Notes under the pieces: generated by a model
What the model saw: the letters and a program-made list of their open reading frames with translations, nothing else
What the model was told of the DNA's origin: nothing
The model's database searches: none
Program-made: the position numbers and the translations under genes
Part shown: positions 654 to 6,493 of the stretch, in pieces
Numbering within the stretch: position 1 is the stretch's first letter
Layout of the letters: the number at the start of each line of letters is the position of its first letter
Assembly (NCBI GenBank): GCA_902517535.1
Contig: CABYCK010000005.1
Span: forward strand, 1 to 52,935
Length of the DNA stretch: 52,935 nucleotides
Source: an uncultured Pelagibacteraceae bacterium
GTDB lineage: Bacteria > Pseudomonadota > Alphaproteobacteria > Pelagibacterales > Pelagibacteraceae
Reading direction: 5' to 3'

Positions 654-1871
654 TTAAATTTTAAAAACTTTCTTACAATTATCAATTGCTTTACATAAAA
701 TATCTATGTCATCTTTCGAGTTGTAAACTCCAATAGACGCTCGAGCAGTAGCTGAAATTCCTAACTTATCGTGTAAAATTTGACAACAATGATGACCTGC
801 TCTTATTGCAACTCCATCTTCATCTAAAATTGTAGCGATATCATGAGGATGAACTCCTTTCATCGTAAAACAAATAACAGAACCTCTTACTTTTGGATTG
901 CCAATTAAATTAATTGAATTATTTTTTCTTAATTTTTCAATACCGTATTCAAGTATTTCGTTTTCATGTGTTTGAATATTCTTAATTCCTAAATTTTCAA
1001 TAAACCTGATGGACTCGGAAAAAGCTACAACTTCTGCTGTTTGCATTGTGCCTGCTTCAAATCTTGTAGGAGAATTTGCAAAAATTACATTGTCTTTTAA
1101 AACTTCACTAATCATACCTCCACCACCTTGGTAGGGAGGTAATACGTCTAACCACTTTTTTTTTGCAAAAAGTATTCCTAATCCATTTGGACCATACATT
1201 TTATGACACGATATAGCGTAAAAATCACATCCTAATTCCTCCATATCTATTTTTAAATGTGGAGCTCCTTGGGTTCCATCTACTAAAACTGGAATATCTT
1301 TCTCTCTTGCTAAATCAACAATTTTTTTTATCGGCATAATAGCTCCGGTTACATTTGAAATGTGAGTTATAGCTATAATTTTTGTTTTAGAATTTATAAG
1401 TCTTTTAATTTCATCAATTTCAACTTCTCCTCTCTCATTAACAGGTGCAAATTTAATTTTTGCTCCTTTTTTTTGTCTTAAAAAATGCCAAGGGATGTAA
1501 TTTGAATGATGCTCCAATTCTGTTGTAAGGATTTCGTCACCTTTACTTATAAATTTTTCACCATAAGAGGAGGCAATTAGATTGATTGACTCAGTTGCTC
1601 CTTTGGTAAAAACGATTTCCTCTCTATGTTTTGCATTTATATAATTTTTAACCTTATCTCTGGAGTCCTCAAATCTATTGGTTGCTTTCACAGCTAAAGT
1701 ATGAACGCTTCTGCCTACATTAGAAAACTCCGTTTCATAAAAATTTGCCATCCTATTTATTACTATTTGAGGTTTTTGAGAGGAATTTGCGCTATCTAAA
1801 TAAACCAAAGGTTTGCCATTAATTTTTTGTTTAAATATTGGAAATTCAGATTTAATTTTTTTTATATCCAT
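654..1871 (-). CDS. sufS: Cysteine desulfurase SufS
   Basis: A 405-residue class V aminotransferase-fold enzyme that removes sulfur from cysteine as an enzyme-bound persulfide for Fe-S assembly. The PLP-binding Lys is in AISCHKMYGPNGLG, the PLP-stacking His region is TELEHHSNYIPW, and the catalytic Cys is C362 in RAGHHCCQ. The length and the short active-site loop match SufS (group II) and not IscS or NifS. It is the fifth gene of the operon and overlaps the end of sufD by 20 bases. It probably works with SufU, encoded immediately downstream, since no SufE gene is seen. Confidence 0.96.
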   Translation of the reverse strand: MDIKKIKSEFPIFKQKINGKPLVYLDSANSSQKPQIVINRMANFYETEFSNVGRSVHTLAVKATNRFEDSRDKVKNYINAKHREEIVFTKGATESINLIASSYGEKFISKGDEILTTELEHHSNYIPWHFLRQKKGAKIKFAPVNERGEVEIDEIKRLINSKTKIIAITHISNVTGAIMPIKKIVDLAREKDIPVLVDGTQGAPHLKIDMEELGCDFYAISCHKMYGPNGLGILFAKKKWLDVLPPYQGGGGMISEVLKDNVIFANSPTRFEAGTMQTAEVVAFSESIRFIENLGIKNIQTHENEILEYGIEKLRKNNSINLIGNPKVRGSVICFTMKGVHPHDIATILDEDGVAIRAGHHCCQILHDKLGISATARASIGVYNSKDDIDILCKAIDNCKKVFKI

Positions 1872-3111
1872 TTAATTGATCCGCTAATTTTTTTTTCAAG
1901 AAATTCTTCATTGAGTCACTTTTAATAGACTCGATTACTTCACTAAGAAAACCGTTAACTAATAATTCGACTGACTCATTTTCACTTAAACCTCTTGTCA
2001 TTAAGTAATATATAGAGTCTTTGTCAAGACTGCCTGATGAGGATCCGTGAGAACATTTTACGTCATCTGCATAAATTTCTAACTCTGGTTTTGAGTCAAA
2101 CTCTGATCTTTCACTTAATAAAATAGCTTTACTTAGTTGATATGCGTCTGTTTTTTGTGCAACATCCTTAACAAAAATTTTTCCTTGATAAATACCTTTG
2201 CTTTCTGAATCTAAAACGTTTTTTACTTTTTGATAACTTTTACAATTTGGAGAATTGTGATTAACTCTTGTTTTTATCTCTTGATGATCAATTTTATTTA
2301 GAAAAGATGCTGATTGTAAATTACATTCACAATTTTCACCGTTAAGATTAAACTCTAAATCTAATTTATTAAACTTTAATCCAGACGGAAATATAAAAGT
2401 CGTCAAATTTGAAGCATTAGATAATTCATGCTTCGAGTATTTGTGAAAATATCCAGAACTCTTGTTGTTTTGAACGCAAATATTTTTCAATATTGCTGCT
2501 TTTTCTAAAACTACATTTTCATAAACATTATTAAAAAAATTCTTTTCTGACTGGTTTATAATTAAATTTAGAGTATGTAATTCTGAATTTTTTCCAATTT
2601 TAATCTTATTTTTACTGTTTAGAATTATCTCATTTAAATCATTTGTAAATAAATTATATATTACCAAAATTTTTTTAAATTTATAATTTTCTTCAATTTC
2701 TAAAAAAAAACCTTTGTCAGACAATGCATGATTTAGATTAATTAAGGGATTGTTCTCTTTTCTGTCGGCAAAGTCATTATTTGTGAAAGATTTTAATTTA
2801 ATCTTATCATTTTCCTCAAATCTAAAATCACTAACTGTCAATCTACCATTAATAACAACGATGTAATTGTGTTCAAAATCTTTGATAAAATTAATTTTTG
2901 ATTTTTCTTGCTCTGACGATTTTATGTTTAATTTTGAAAAGTTTTTCGAAACTATCTCTCTAAGATCAGAAAATTTCCAGTCTTCTTGTTTTTTGTTGGG
3001 AAATCCAACATTGTTAAAATAATTTAAATTTTTTAATCTAAAATCTTTTTCCTCTTTTGAGAATTTTCCAATTTTATCTATTTCGTTCAAATTTATCTTA
3101 AAGTTCAACAT
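1852..3111 (-). CDS. sufD: Fe-S cluster assembly protein SufD
   Basis: A 419-residue SufBD-family protein. The recognisable family core is in the C-terminal half: SPNCKSYQKVKNVLDSESKGIYQGKIFV, then DAYQLSKAILLSERSEFDSKPELEIYADDVKCSHGSSSG, containing the conserved Cys and His of the SufD C-terminus. SufD pairs with SufB and the ATPase SufC in the SufBC2D complex that builds clusters. The N-terminal half is divergent and Lys/Asn-rich, as is common in AT-rich genomes. The gene lies between sufC (one base away) and sufS (20-base overlap). It is distinguished from SufB by its weaker N-terminal conservation and its position. Confidence 0.95.
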   Translation of the reverse strand: MLNFKINLNEIDKIGKFSKEEKDFRLKNLNYFNNVGFPNKKQEDWKFSDLREIVSKNFSKLNIKSSEQEKSKINFIKDFEHNYIVVINGRLTVSDFRFEENDKIKLKSFTNNDFADRKENNPLINLNHALSDKGFFLEIEENYKFKKILVIYNLFTNDLNEIILNSKNKIKIGKNSELHTLNLIINQSEKNFFNNVYENVVLEKAAILKNICVQNNKSSGYFHKYSKHELSNASNLTTFIFPSGLKFNKLDLEFNLNGENCECNLQSASFLNKIDHQEIKTRVNHNSPNCKSYQKVKNVLDSESKGIYQGKIFVKDVAQKTDAYQLSKAILLSERSEFDSKPELEIYADDVKCSHGSSSGSLDKDSIYYLMTRGLSENESVELLVNGFLSEVIESIKSDSMKNFLKKKLADQLNGYKKN

Positions 3112-3112
3112 A

Positions 3113-3847
3113 TTAATTAATTCCTTTGTATCCAGTTTTTTCTAATTGAATTGCAAGTTCGCTAGTTCCTGATTTAACTATTTTTCCATCAGCTAATACA
3201 TGGACGAAGTCTGGTTTAATAAAGTTTAATAATCTTTGGTAGTGAGTAATAACTAGAAAAGATTTTTTATCATTTCTTGAAGAATTTACTCCGTCAGCTA
3301 CGATTTTTAATGCATCGATGTCGAGGCCTGAGTCAGTTTCATCAAGAATGACTAGATTTGGTTCTAAAATTTTCATTTGTAAAATTTCATTCTTTTTTTT
3401 TTCTCCTCCTGAAAAACCAACGTTTAGTTGTCTGGATAACATTTTTTCATCCATCCCTAGTTCATTCGATTTTTCCTTTAATATTTTTAAAAATGATAGT
3501 GCGTCCAATTCTTTTTTTCCTTGTGCCTTTCTAACTTTGTTAAAAGATGTTTTAAGAAAATTTCTCGTATTAACGCCTGGTATTTCAGTAGGATATTGAA
3601 AGGCTAAGAAAATTCCTTTTTGCGCTCGCTCGTCAATAGAGATTTCATTTAGGTTTTTTCCTTGGTATTTTAATTCACCCGATACTTTGTATCCTTCTCT
3701 GCCAGAAAGAACATTTGCTAAGGTGCTTTTGCCTGAACCATTAGGACCCATGATTGCATGCAATTCGCCGGGCTTAATATTTATATTCACTCCTTTTAGT
3801 ATTTCTTTGTTGTTAATTGAAGCGCTTAAATTTTTTATGCTTAACAT
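3113..3847 (-). CDS. sufC: Fe-S assembly ATPase SufC
   Basis: A 244-residue ABC-type ATPase. Walker A is GPNGSGKST (34-42), the Q-loop is LAFQYPTEIPG (81-91), the signature is FSGGEKKK (145-152), Walker B is LVILDETDSGLD (165-176) and the switch His is H202 in ITHYQR. The FSGGEKKKNEILQM signature and the ETDSGLD Walker B are typical of SufC and not of transporter ABC subunits. SufC is cytosolic and powers the SufBC2D complex. Its start overlaps the sufB stop by one base (TAATG), so translation is probably coupled. Confidence 0.97.
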   Translation of the reverse strand: MLSIKNLSASINNKEILKGVNINIKPGELHAIMGPNGSGKSTLANVLSGREGYKVSGELKYQGKNLNEISIDERAQKGIFLAFQYPTEIPGVNTRNFLKTSFNKVRKAQGKKELDALSFLKILKEKSNELGMDEKMLSRQLNVGFSGGEKKKNEILQMKILEPNLVILDETDSGLDIDALKIVADGVNSSRNDKKSFLVITHYQRLLNFIKPDFVHVLADGKIVKSGTSELAIQLEKTGYKGIN

Positions 3848-5283
3848 TAGCCTACGCTTCCTTCCAAGCTTATGCCCACAAGCTTTTGAGCCTCAACAGC
3901 AAATTCCATTGGTAATTGCTGTAAGACATCTTTACAAAAGCCATTAACTATAAGACTCACTGCTTCCTCTTGATTTAATCCTCTTTGATTACAATAAAAT
4001 AATTGATCTTCATTAATTTTTGAGGTCGTTGCCTCATGTTCAATAGTCGATGAAGAATTTTTATTCCTTATATACGGAATAGTGTGGGCCCCACATTTAT
4101 TACCCATCAATAATGAGTCACATTGAGTATAATTTCTTGAGTTTAAAGCTTTTCTTCCAATATCAACTAGTCCTCTATAAGTATTATCGGCTTTTCCAGC
4201 TGATATACCTTTTGAAATAATTTTACTTTTTGTATTCTTTCCTAGATGAATCATTTTTGTTCCTGTATCAGCTTTTTGGTGATTGTTAGTGATGGCTATT
4301 GAATAAAATTCTCCAACAGAATTGTCTCCTTGTAAAATACAGCTAGGATATTTCCAAGTTATAGCAGAGCCTGTTTCAACTTGTGTCCAAGAAATTTTAG
4401 AATTTTTTCCTCTGCAAGCTCCTCTTTTTGTTACAAAATTATAAATACCGCCTACTCCATTTTTATCACCAGGGTACCAATTTTGAACTGTAGAATACTT
4501 TATTTCAGCGTCATCTAAAGCTACTAGTTCAACATTAGCAGCGTGTAATTGATTTTCGTCTCTCATGGGGGCAGTGCATCCTTCTAGATAACTTACGTAA
4601 CTACCTTTGTCTGCAATTATCAAAGTTCTTTCAAATTGACCGGTTTCAGAAGCATTAATTCTAAAATATGTAGATAATTCCATAGGACATTTTATGTTGG
4701 GAGGTATGTATACAAAAGATCCATCAGTAAAAACTGCAGAATTCAGGGTAGCAAAATAATGATCAGTTATTGGTATTACAGATCCTAAATATTTTTTTAC
4801 TAGCTCGGGATGTTTTTGTATAGCCTCTGAAATTGGACAAAATATAATACCTTTTTTAGTCAATTCATCTTTAAAAGTTGTAGCCACTGAAACTGAATCA
4901 AACACAGCGTCTACTGCGACTCCACTTAATTTTTTTTGTTCATTTAAAGGAATTCCAAGTTTTTTATAAGTTTCTATAAGTTTTGGATCAATTTCGTCTA
5001 AACTCTTAGGTTTGTCTTTCATACTTTTTGGGGCAGAATAGTAATATAAATCTTGATAATTAATTTTTGGAAACTTTGGTTTTTGCCAATTTGGTTCTTT
5101 TAATTTTTTAAGCCTGTTAAATGCTTTTAATCTCCAATCTAACATCCATTTAGGCTCTTTTTTTATTTTTGAAATAAAGTGAATTGTTTCCTCTGAAAGC
5201 CCTTTTGGAGCTTTAATATTTTCAATATCGGTTGTAAAACCATATTTGTACTCTTGATTATTTTGTAAATCTTGATTTTTCAT
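3847..5283 (-). CDS. sufB: Fe-S cluster assembly protein SufB
   Basis: A 478-residue SufB, the usual length. Typical blocks are visible: YYYSAPK near residue 80, [20 protein letters not shown] mid-protein, [20 protein letters not shown], and the C-terminal [20 protein letters not shown]. SufB is the main scaffold subunit of SufBC2D. It is the second gene of the operon, one base after iscR, and ends overlapping the sufC start by one base. No truncation or frameshift is seen. Confidence 0.97.
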
Positions 5284-5284
5284 T

Positions 5285-5704
5285 TTAATAATTTTGATTT
5301 TGTTTCACTAAATCTTGTAACTTTATTTTTTCAAAGAAACCATTAATATGTTGATCCAGTTGATCCCATAAATTATGCGTAATACATTTCGATGATTTGT
5401 TGTTACAACCTTTTTTTGAATTTTTTTTACAACTTAACATTCTGACTTCTTCATCAACTGCAAATATTATATTTGATAATTTTATTTCTGTAGCAGGTTT
5501 TTCCAAAATATATCCCCCGTTGGCCCCTCTTACACTTTTTACTAATTTTTTTCTTTTAAGTTTAATAAAAATTTGCTCTAAGTAAGCAAGAGAAATATTT
5601 TGTCTTAAAGATATTTCGGCTAAACTTATCGGACCTACACTAGTATTTAGAGCTAAGTCAGCCATAGCCATTACAGCATATCGTCCTTTAGTAGTGAGTT
5701 TCAT
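5285..5704 (-). CDS. iscR: Rrf2-family Fe-S regulator IscR
   Basis: A 139-residue Rrf2 regulator beginning [19 protein letters not shown], with a winged helix-turn-helix and the wing [14 protein letters not shown]. The likely [2Fe-2S] ligands are C92, C100, C107 and H110. The CITHNLW block corresponds to the CLTHALW block of E. coli IscR, so this is IscR and not the related RirA. The Cys spacing (C-x7-C-x6-C-x2-H) is longer than the E. coli C-x5-C-x5-C-x2-H. It heads the suf operon and a good IscR operator lies upstream, so autoregulation of the whole operon by cluster status is likely. The operator link is inference. Confidence 0.93.
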
Positions 5705-5736
5705 AAATTAGTGTTGTAATACAATAATTTTAACTC

Positions 5737-5761
5737 AATTCCTACTACTTTAGTCGGGTTT
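5737..5761 (-). promoter_or_regulatory. Probable IscR type-1 operator upstream of iscR-suf
   Basis: On the minus strand this 25-base stretch contains CCCGACT, four bases, then AGTAGG. It follows the E. coli type-1 IscR consensus (ATASYYGACT, four bases, AGTCRRSTAT) with few mismatches, including the imperfect inverted repeat CCCGACT/TCCTACT. It sits about 33-57 bases upstream of the iscR ATG. It would cover a candidate -35 element (GACTAA) that lies 17 bases upstream of a TAAAAT -10 box. Holo-IscR bound here would block polymerase, giving negative feedback. The match was read by eye; binding and the promoter boxes are inferred. Confidence 0.6.
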
Positions 5762-5836
5762 AAAAAAATTTATTTGACGCATTAAAACATGTTATAAAGA
5801 CTATCTTTTTTTTGAAATTAATAATCATTATTAAAA

Positions 5837-6493
5837 ATGAAACCAAAAAGTTTAGAAATTTTTATACCAGGACCAGCGGGAAGACTTGAGGCCAAATATT
5901 ATAAAAATCCCAAATTTGGATCACCAGTTGCAATTGTTTTGCATCCTCACCCTCAATATGGAGGAACAATGAATAATAAAATTGTTCAGTCAATGTATAA
6001 TATTTTTTTACAAAATGGATTTTCAGTAATTAAAGTAAATTTTAGAGGTGTAGGTAAAAGTGATGGTGTTTTTGATAATGGTCAAGGAGAACTTTCAGAT
6101 GCGGCAGCAGCTCTAGATTGGATTGAAAGACAAAATTTAGATTATAGCCAATGCTGGGTATCTGGTTTCTCCTTTGGTTCGTTGATATGTATGCAATTAA
6201 TTATGAGAAGACCGGAAGTAAATAATTTCATAGCAATATCTCCTCAACCAAATGTTTATGATTTTTCTTTTTTAGCTCCTTGCCCAACATCAGGGCAAGT
6301 TGTGTATAGTGAAAATGATGAGTTAGTTACTAAAGAAAGTATCATAGAACTTGATAATAGAATTAAAAATCAAAAGGGTGTTGAAGTTATTTTTTCAAAA
6401 ATAAAAAATTCAAATCATTTTTTTAAAAATAAAGAAAAAGAATTAGCTTTAGAAGTTGAAAAATATATTAAAGAAAAGACTGCCCTTATCTAA
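5837..6493 (+). CDS. Alpha/beta hydrolase (COG2945-type)
   Basis: A 218-residue alpha/beta hydrolase with HPHPQYGGTMNN near residue 36, NFRGVGKSDG, the nucleophile elbow GFSFGS (GxSxG), an Asp in SENDELV and a late His in NSNHFFKN that completes the catalytic triad. This pattern matches the small COG2945 family, whose natural substrate is not established. There is no signal peptide, so it is probably cytosolic. It is divergent from iscR, and a hydrolase of this type beside iscR/suf is a recurring alphaproteobacterial arrangement. It ends with an 8-base overlap with the convergent anmK. I cannot name a substrate. Confidence 0.85.
   Translation: MKPKSLEIFIPGPAGRLEAKYYKNPKFGSPVAIVLHPHPQYGGTMNNKIVQSMYNIFLQNGFSVIKVNFRGVGKSDGVFDNGQGELSDAAAALDWIERQNLDYSQCWVSGFSFGSLICMQLIMRRPEVNNFIAISPQPNVYDFSFLAPCPTSGQVVYSENDELVTKESIIELDNRIKNQKGVEVIFSKIKNSNHFFKNKEKELALEVEKYIKEKTALI

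Follow-up and report, generated by a model that had tools for sequence, protein, structure and literature searches.

A predicted IscR operator of genus-specific form upstream of the iscR-suf operon in a Pelagibacteraceae genome

The window, by which we mean the whole stretch of 52,935 nucleotides analysed here, belongs to an uncultured Pelagibacteraceae bacterium whose genome comprises 865 kb in 34 contigs (78% complete). Its minus strand carries the operon iscR-sufBCDS-sufU, of which iscR (5285-5704, 139 aa) is the first gene. The NCBIfam models recognise sufB (3847-5283) at 897.6 bits and sufU (186-653; TIGR01994) at 146.8 bits over cut-off, while sufC (3113-3847), sufD (1852-3111) and sufS (654-1871), all likewise on the minus strand, are open reading frames in operon order that owe their identity to sequence and synteny. 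The contig end falls within the gene after sufU. On the plus strand an alpha/beta hydrolase gene (5837-6493) diverges from iscR, an arrangement that other members of the family share and that recurs in a second family of the order. The control region between the two genes measures 132 bp in all, and the order of its elements is fixed in the genus: a Fur-box-like block, the -10 of the hydrolase gene, an A/T tract, the IscR site and an iscR -10-like element. The putative extended -10 of the hydrolase gene, TGTTATAAA (5790-5798, plus strand), is conserved in the genus and is also found as TTATATCA, on the other strand, in genera without IscR. The genus alignment shows the A/T tract to be conserved as well; it precedes the operator at 5760-5769 on the minus strand. 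A third strongly conserved block spans 5770-5800 and reads TTTGACGCATTAAAACATGTTATAAA on the plus strand; its end resembles the extended -10 of the hydrolase gene, and its TTGNCGC part is conserved, but at a spacing that fits no -35.

TIGR02010 is the best family for the regulator, which scores 187.6 bits against an equivalog cut-off of 207.55 and passes the superfamily cut-off; solved E. coli IscR structures match it at 1e-33. The first-pass annotation had credited this protein with all three cysteines and the histidine that bind the cluster, and indeed C92, C100, C107 and H110 are all present, in a motif whose spacing is the same in 80/80 sequences checked. The DNA-binding surface is kept at Y41, E43, Q44 and R59, with S40 replaced by A (residue roles taken from PMC5411485 and PMC11475020). 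In the 78% complete genome, IscR is the only Rrf2 protein found.

The predicted operator is a 25-bp imperfect inverted repeat, AAACCCGACTAAAGTAGTAGGAATT, at 5737-5761 on the minus strand, 32 bp upstream of iscR. It had been described as a close fit to the enterobacterial type-1 site, with four bases between CCCGACT and AGTAGG; the sequence has five (AAAGT). The site agrees with the type-1 consensus of E. coli, given in PMC6599224 as ATASYYGACTRWWWYAGTCRRSTAT, at 19/25 positions, which is no better than chance: three other places in the window equal it, making four that reach 19/25, and about 3.4 are expected per window in sequence simulated with its dinucleotide composition. The E. coli consensus was consequently rejected as sole evidence for an operator. 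The type-2 consensus AWARCCCYTSNGTTTGMNGKKKTKWA (PMC11475020), when compared with the site by eye, agrees at about half of the positions, and a type-2 site was rejected on this account. Rfam gave no known structured RNA at the operator.

Relatives provide a firmer basis. Conservation upstream of iscR in close relatives had been set beforehand as a point on which the site could fail, and the site was found there in tens of relatives; since it is so conserved, we accept 5737-5761 as a real site, and very probably the operator of iscR-sufBCDS-sufU. In the named relatives, about 27-33 bp separate its end from the start of iscR. Its form in seven further genera of the family is TTGAC(T/C)-N4 or 5-(A/G)(G/C)T(A/C/G)(G/A)G, or nearly so. 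Genome G250 carries ATACTTGACTAATTTAGTCAGGTTT in front of its iscR-suf operon. In the second family the site lies upstream of cysE-iscR and is mostly ATAGTTGACTAAATTAGTAGGTTAT, nearly the E. coli consensus; there cysE precedes iscR in the operon (L120, 1671-2351, and L121, 1175-1846). In genus g147, a second, IscS-like cysteine desulfurase gene is found between iscR and sufB (L272, 4667-5803, in genome G230). A position weight matrix was made from the sites of the seven other genera and the second family, with the window's own genus excluded, and scanned over the 52.9 kb window as the first-pass annotation had proposed. It ranks 5737-5761 first at 17.1 bits, with the runner-up at 10.1; in simulated sequence, the top score has a per-position P of about 2e-7. 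Some other members of the genus score low with this outside matrix (5.7, 7.8 and -1.8 bits).

The site is also absent where iscR is absent. Searches of genera g5, g149 and g153 gave no IscR hits, and the complete genome G182 gave no Rrf2 protein, while these genera retain the divergent hydrolase-sufB arrangement. With the outside matrix, the best intergenic score is -5 to -11 bits in the IscR-less genera versus 12 to 35 bits in IscR-bearing genera outside the window's own genus. In a tree of the divergent hydrolase, the IscR-less genera fall on one branch (support 89/85), adjoined by the IscR-bearing g147, and this grouping fits a single event in which regulator and operator would have been lost together. 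The suf operon itself is kept, divergent from the hydrolase gene and without IscR, in G182, G246, G264 and G236 (g5, g153) and in G245 and G254 (g149).

How many targets the regulator has can be approached in the same genomes. In g144, g146 and g147, a type-1 core pattern matches the iscR promoter, the sole other match being in G274; the variant site of G241 escapes the pattern, and in the IscR-less G182, G246 and G264 it matches nothing. The sites of the window's own genus do not fit the type-1 core, and there the zero-mismatch matches of a genus-specific pattern lie at iscR wherever they could be placed. As candidates for further strong sites in the genus, we inspected three one-mismatch matches away from iscR and set them aside, all being in coding sequence (the start of mnmA, rpoB and a gene in L124). 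From these pattern searches, IscR seems to have one strong target here.

The operator of this genus has diverged from that of its relatives. Outside the genus, positions 5-6 are TT in 59/59 sites and the other half carries CC (50) or CT (9); within it, position 5 is C in 66/66, and the palindrome score, 5.1 of 10 outside the genus, is 7.4. The window operator is CC in both halves, and so departs from the type-1 rule, under which a TT half is paired with a CC half. As judged by these alignments, it is type-1 by descent and position, yet not a canonical type-1 site. Its left half, CCCGACT, is identical to that of E. coli site A; because all relatives outside the genus have TT, the comparison indicates that this half is a derived state rather than an inherited likeness.

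The promoter appears to have moved as well. The best -10-like column lies about 16 bp after TTGACT in the other genera versus about 29 bp after the equivalent position in the genus, a comparison that is approximate in that its set included 14 TT-type sequences misaligned by one base. The -10 of the genus is thus shifted about 13 bp downstream. In the window, the putative iscR -10 hexamer is TGTATT (5718-5723, minus strand; genus form TRTAWT), the best -10-like column in the genus. Its distance from the site is constant there, and in the window it follows the right half-site AGTAGG after 17 bp. That the site overlaps the -35 of iscR, as first annotated, can be read only from its position and from relatives in which TTGACT is part of the site, as the window itself has no visible TTGACA-like hexamer and AGTAGG is a poor -35. 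A generic promoter scan yielded candidates no more numerous than in shuffles. Loss of the Shine-Dalgarno sequence was considered as support for the promoter shift and discarded as weak, most genera outside g144 being also without one.

From the position of the site, its co-occurrence with iscR and its near-single occurrence per genome we infer binding, repression and a dependence on the cluster; it is highly probable that IscR represses its own operon, iscR-sufBCDS-sufU, through 5737-5761. When clusters are sufficient, [2Fe-2S]-IscR, with its cluster held by C92, C100, C107 and H110, would bind the inverted repeat, occlude the iscR promoter around its -35 and keep RNA polymerase out. When clusters run short, IscR would lose its cluster and leave the site, and suf would be transcribed until clusters are restored. 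Where the left half includes the -35-like TTGACT, in SAR11 genera other than this one and in the second family, the operator would cover the -35; in the window's own genus, where the left half is now CC-type and the -10 about 13 bp further downstream, it would be the right half-site that takes up the -35 position. A second iron input probably comes from Fur, through a box at 5819-5833 and with the divergent hydrolase gene as its first target. The complete Fe-S feedback loop envisaged in the first-pass annotation is thus sustained to the extent that a conserved predicted operator adjoins an IscR with all its ligands; it is not the whole of the regulation, given a conserved Fur box in the same intergenic region, which that annotation had overlooked.

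Two other explanations of the locus need to be weighed. Rather than binding a regulator, the conserved block could serve mainly as a promoter element, either the iscR -35 with its upstream region or an upstream element for transcription of the hydrolase gene, as might be expected from the -35-like TTGACT within the block in other genera, the -10 about 16 bp downstream of it and the A/T tract that adjoins it. However, the conserved inverted repeat extends past the hexamer, and the genus has lost the TTG of the hexamer while keeping both half-sites. In addition, genera that lost IscR are the only ones without the block, though sufB there still needs a promoter. We regard a pure promoter element as very improbable.

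The other explanation turns on the predicted Fur box at 5819-5833 (plus strand), a 7-1-7 repeat with the sequence TAATAATCATTATTA and the consensus TGATAATNATTATCA. Iron control of the operon could run mainly through Fur at this box, leaving the IscR site as a relic. The box is indeed conserved, scoring 13/14 in 3/4 further members of the genus, and the repeat was found to recur in iron-uptake promoters of these genomes: directly 5' of the gene for an Fe(III)-binding protein, two copies of the motif are arranged in tandem with a spacing of 27 bp in this genome and two relatives (L266, 1654-1695; L267, 1456-1497; L269, 1630-1671). Full-length Fur is present in most relatives, and the box is missing from the g147 genomes G230 and G252, in which full-length Fur is also missing and only a weak Fur-family protein (43-46 bits) is found. 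Against this, G182, G246 and G264 keep Fur and have no box, g147 retains the IscR site without it, and the IscR site is strongly conserved where a relic would decay freely. The box adjoins the start codon of the hydrolase gene, more than 100 bp upstream of iscR and too far for direct repression of iscR. Since it lies between the -10 and the start codon of the hydrolase gene, that gene is the likelier Fur target from the layout of the region, although no hydrolase is among the iron-induced transcripts of P. ubique (PMC2864753), which speaks against a strong Fur effect there. Control of the operon chiefly by Fur thus has very little probability, and repression by IscR at 5737-5761 is the reading that we carry forward.

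A bolder extension of repression by IscR can be offered with considerable doubt. The TT half is the reason that apo-IscR does not bind type-1 sites (PMC5411485). In this genus, the operator may have been rebuilt, its TT half becoming CC-type as the promoter slid by about one half-site. Apo- and holo-IscR might then both bind, and the feedback would shift from cluster sensing towards control by the level of IscR, with a single strong target. We think this unlikely.

Few cells in the ocean are as abundant as those of SAR11 bacteria, which are often short of iron and possess few transcription factors. Here, comparison across the family points to an operator of a known type in a genus-specific variant, with a regulon of probably one target. 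An IscR loop with a single target, which one clade has lost along with the operator and another genus has remodelled, would constitute a natural test of the co-evolution of a repressor and its site. The sites of the genus could also serve to test the TT/CC rule, by which type-1 and type-2 IscR sites are thought to be distinguished. Some of the sites may have been predicted already in the work of Rodionov et al. 2006 on alphaproteobacterial iron regulons. Finally, the IscR operator could account for the iron response already known from the suf operon of P. ubique. In that organism, mRNA from SAR11_0738 (a transcriptional regulator that goes by the name sufA) to SAR11_0745 rises 1.76-2.44-fold under iron limitation, and the suf proteins, unlike the mRNA, do not rise (PMC2864753).

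The locus can be compared with several characterised systems. As at the E. coli iscR promoter with its sites A and B, a type-1-like inverted repeat lies at the promoter upstream of iscR; the left half, CCCGACTAAA, is identical to that of site A, and the ligands of the regulator are likewise three cysteines and one histidine. Unlike in E. coli, there is one site rather than two, with two CC halves in place of CC/TT or TT/CC, and it fronts suf rather than isc, with no further strong targets seen. Sites A and B of the Pseudomonas aeruginosa isc promoter are also type-1 sites lying over a promoter, where binding needs cluster-bound IscR, but there two sites serve the isc operon and a wider regulon (PMC6599224). 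The isc-suf operon of Caulobacter crescentus is, like the one described here, an alphaproteobacterial operon led by iscR, with iron control and a regulator with four cluster ligands; its IscR differs in a wider cysteine spacing, an estimated 302-gene regulon and other motifs, where the present genome has one strong site (PMC11475020). In Rhodobacter sphaeroides, IscR has a single cysteine and acts on a 19-bp Iron-Rhodo-box to control many iron-uptake genes, unlike what we find here; nevertheless, iscR is again the first gene of isc-suf and repression is exerted through a palindromic box (PMC4618611).
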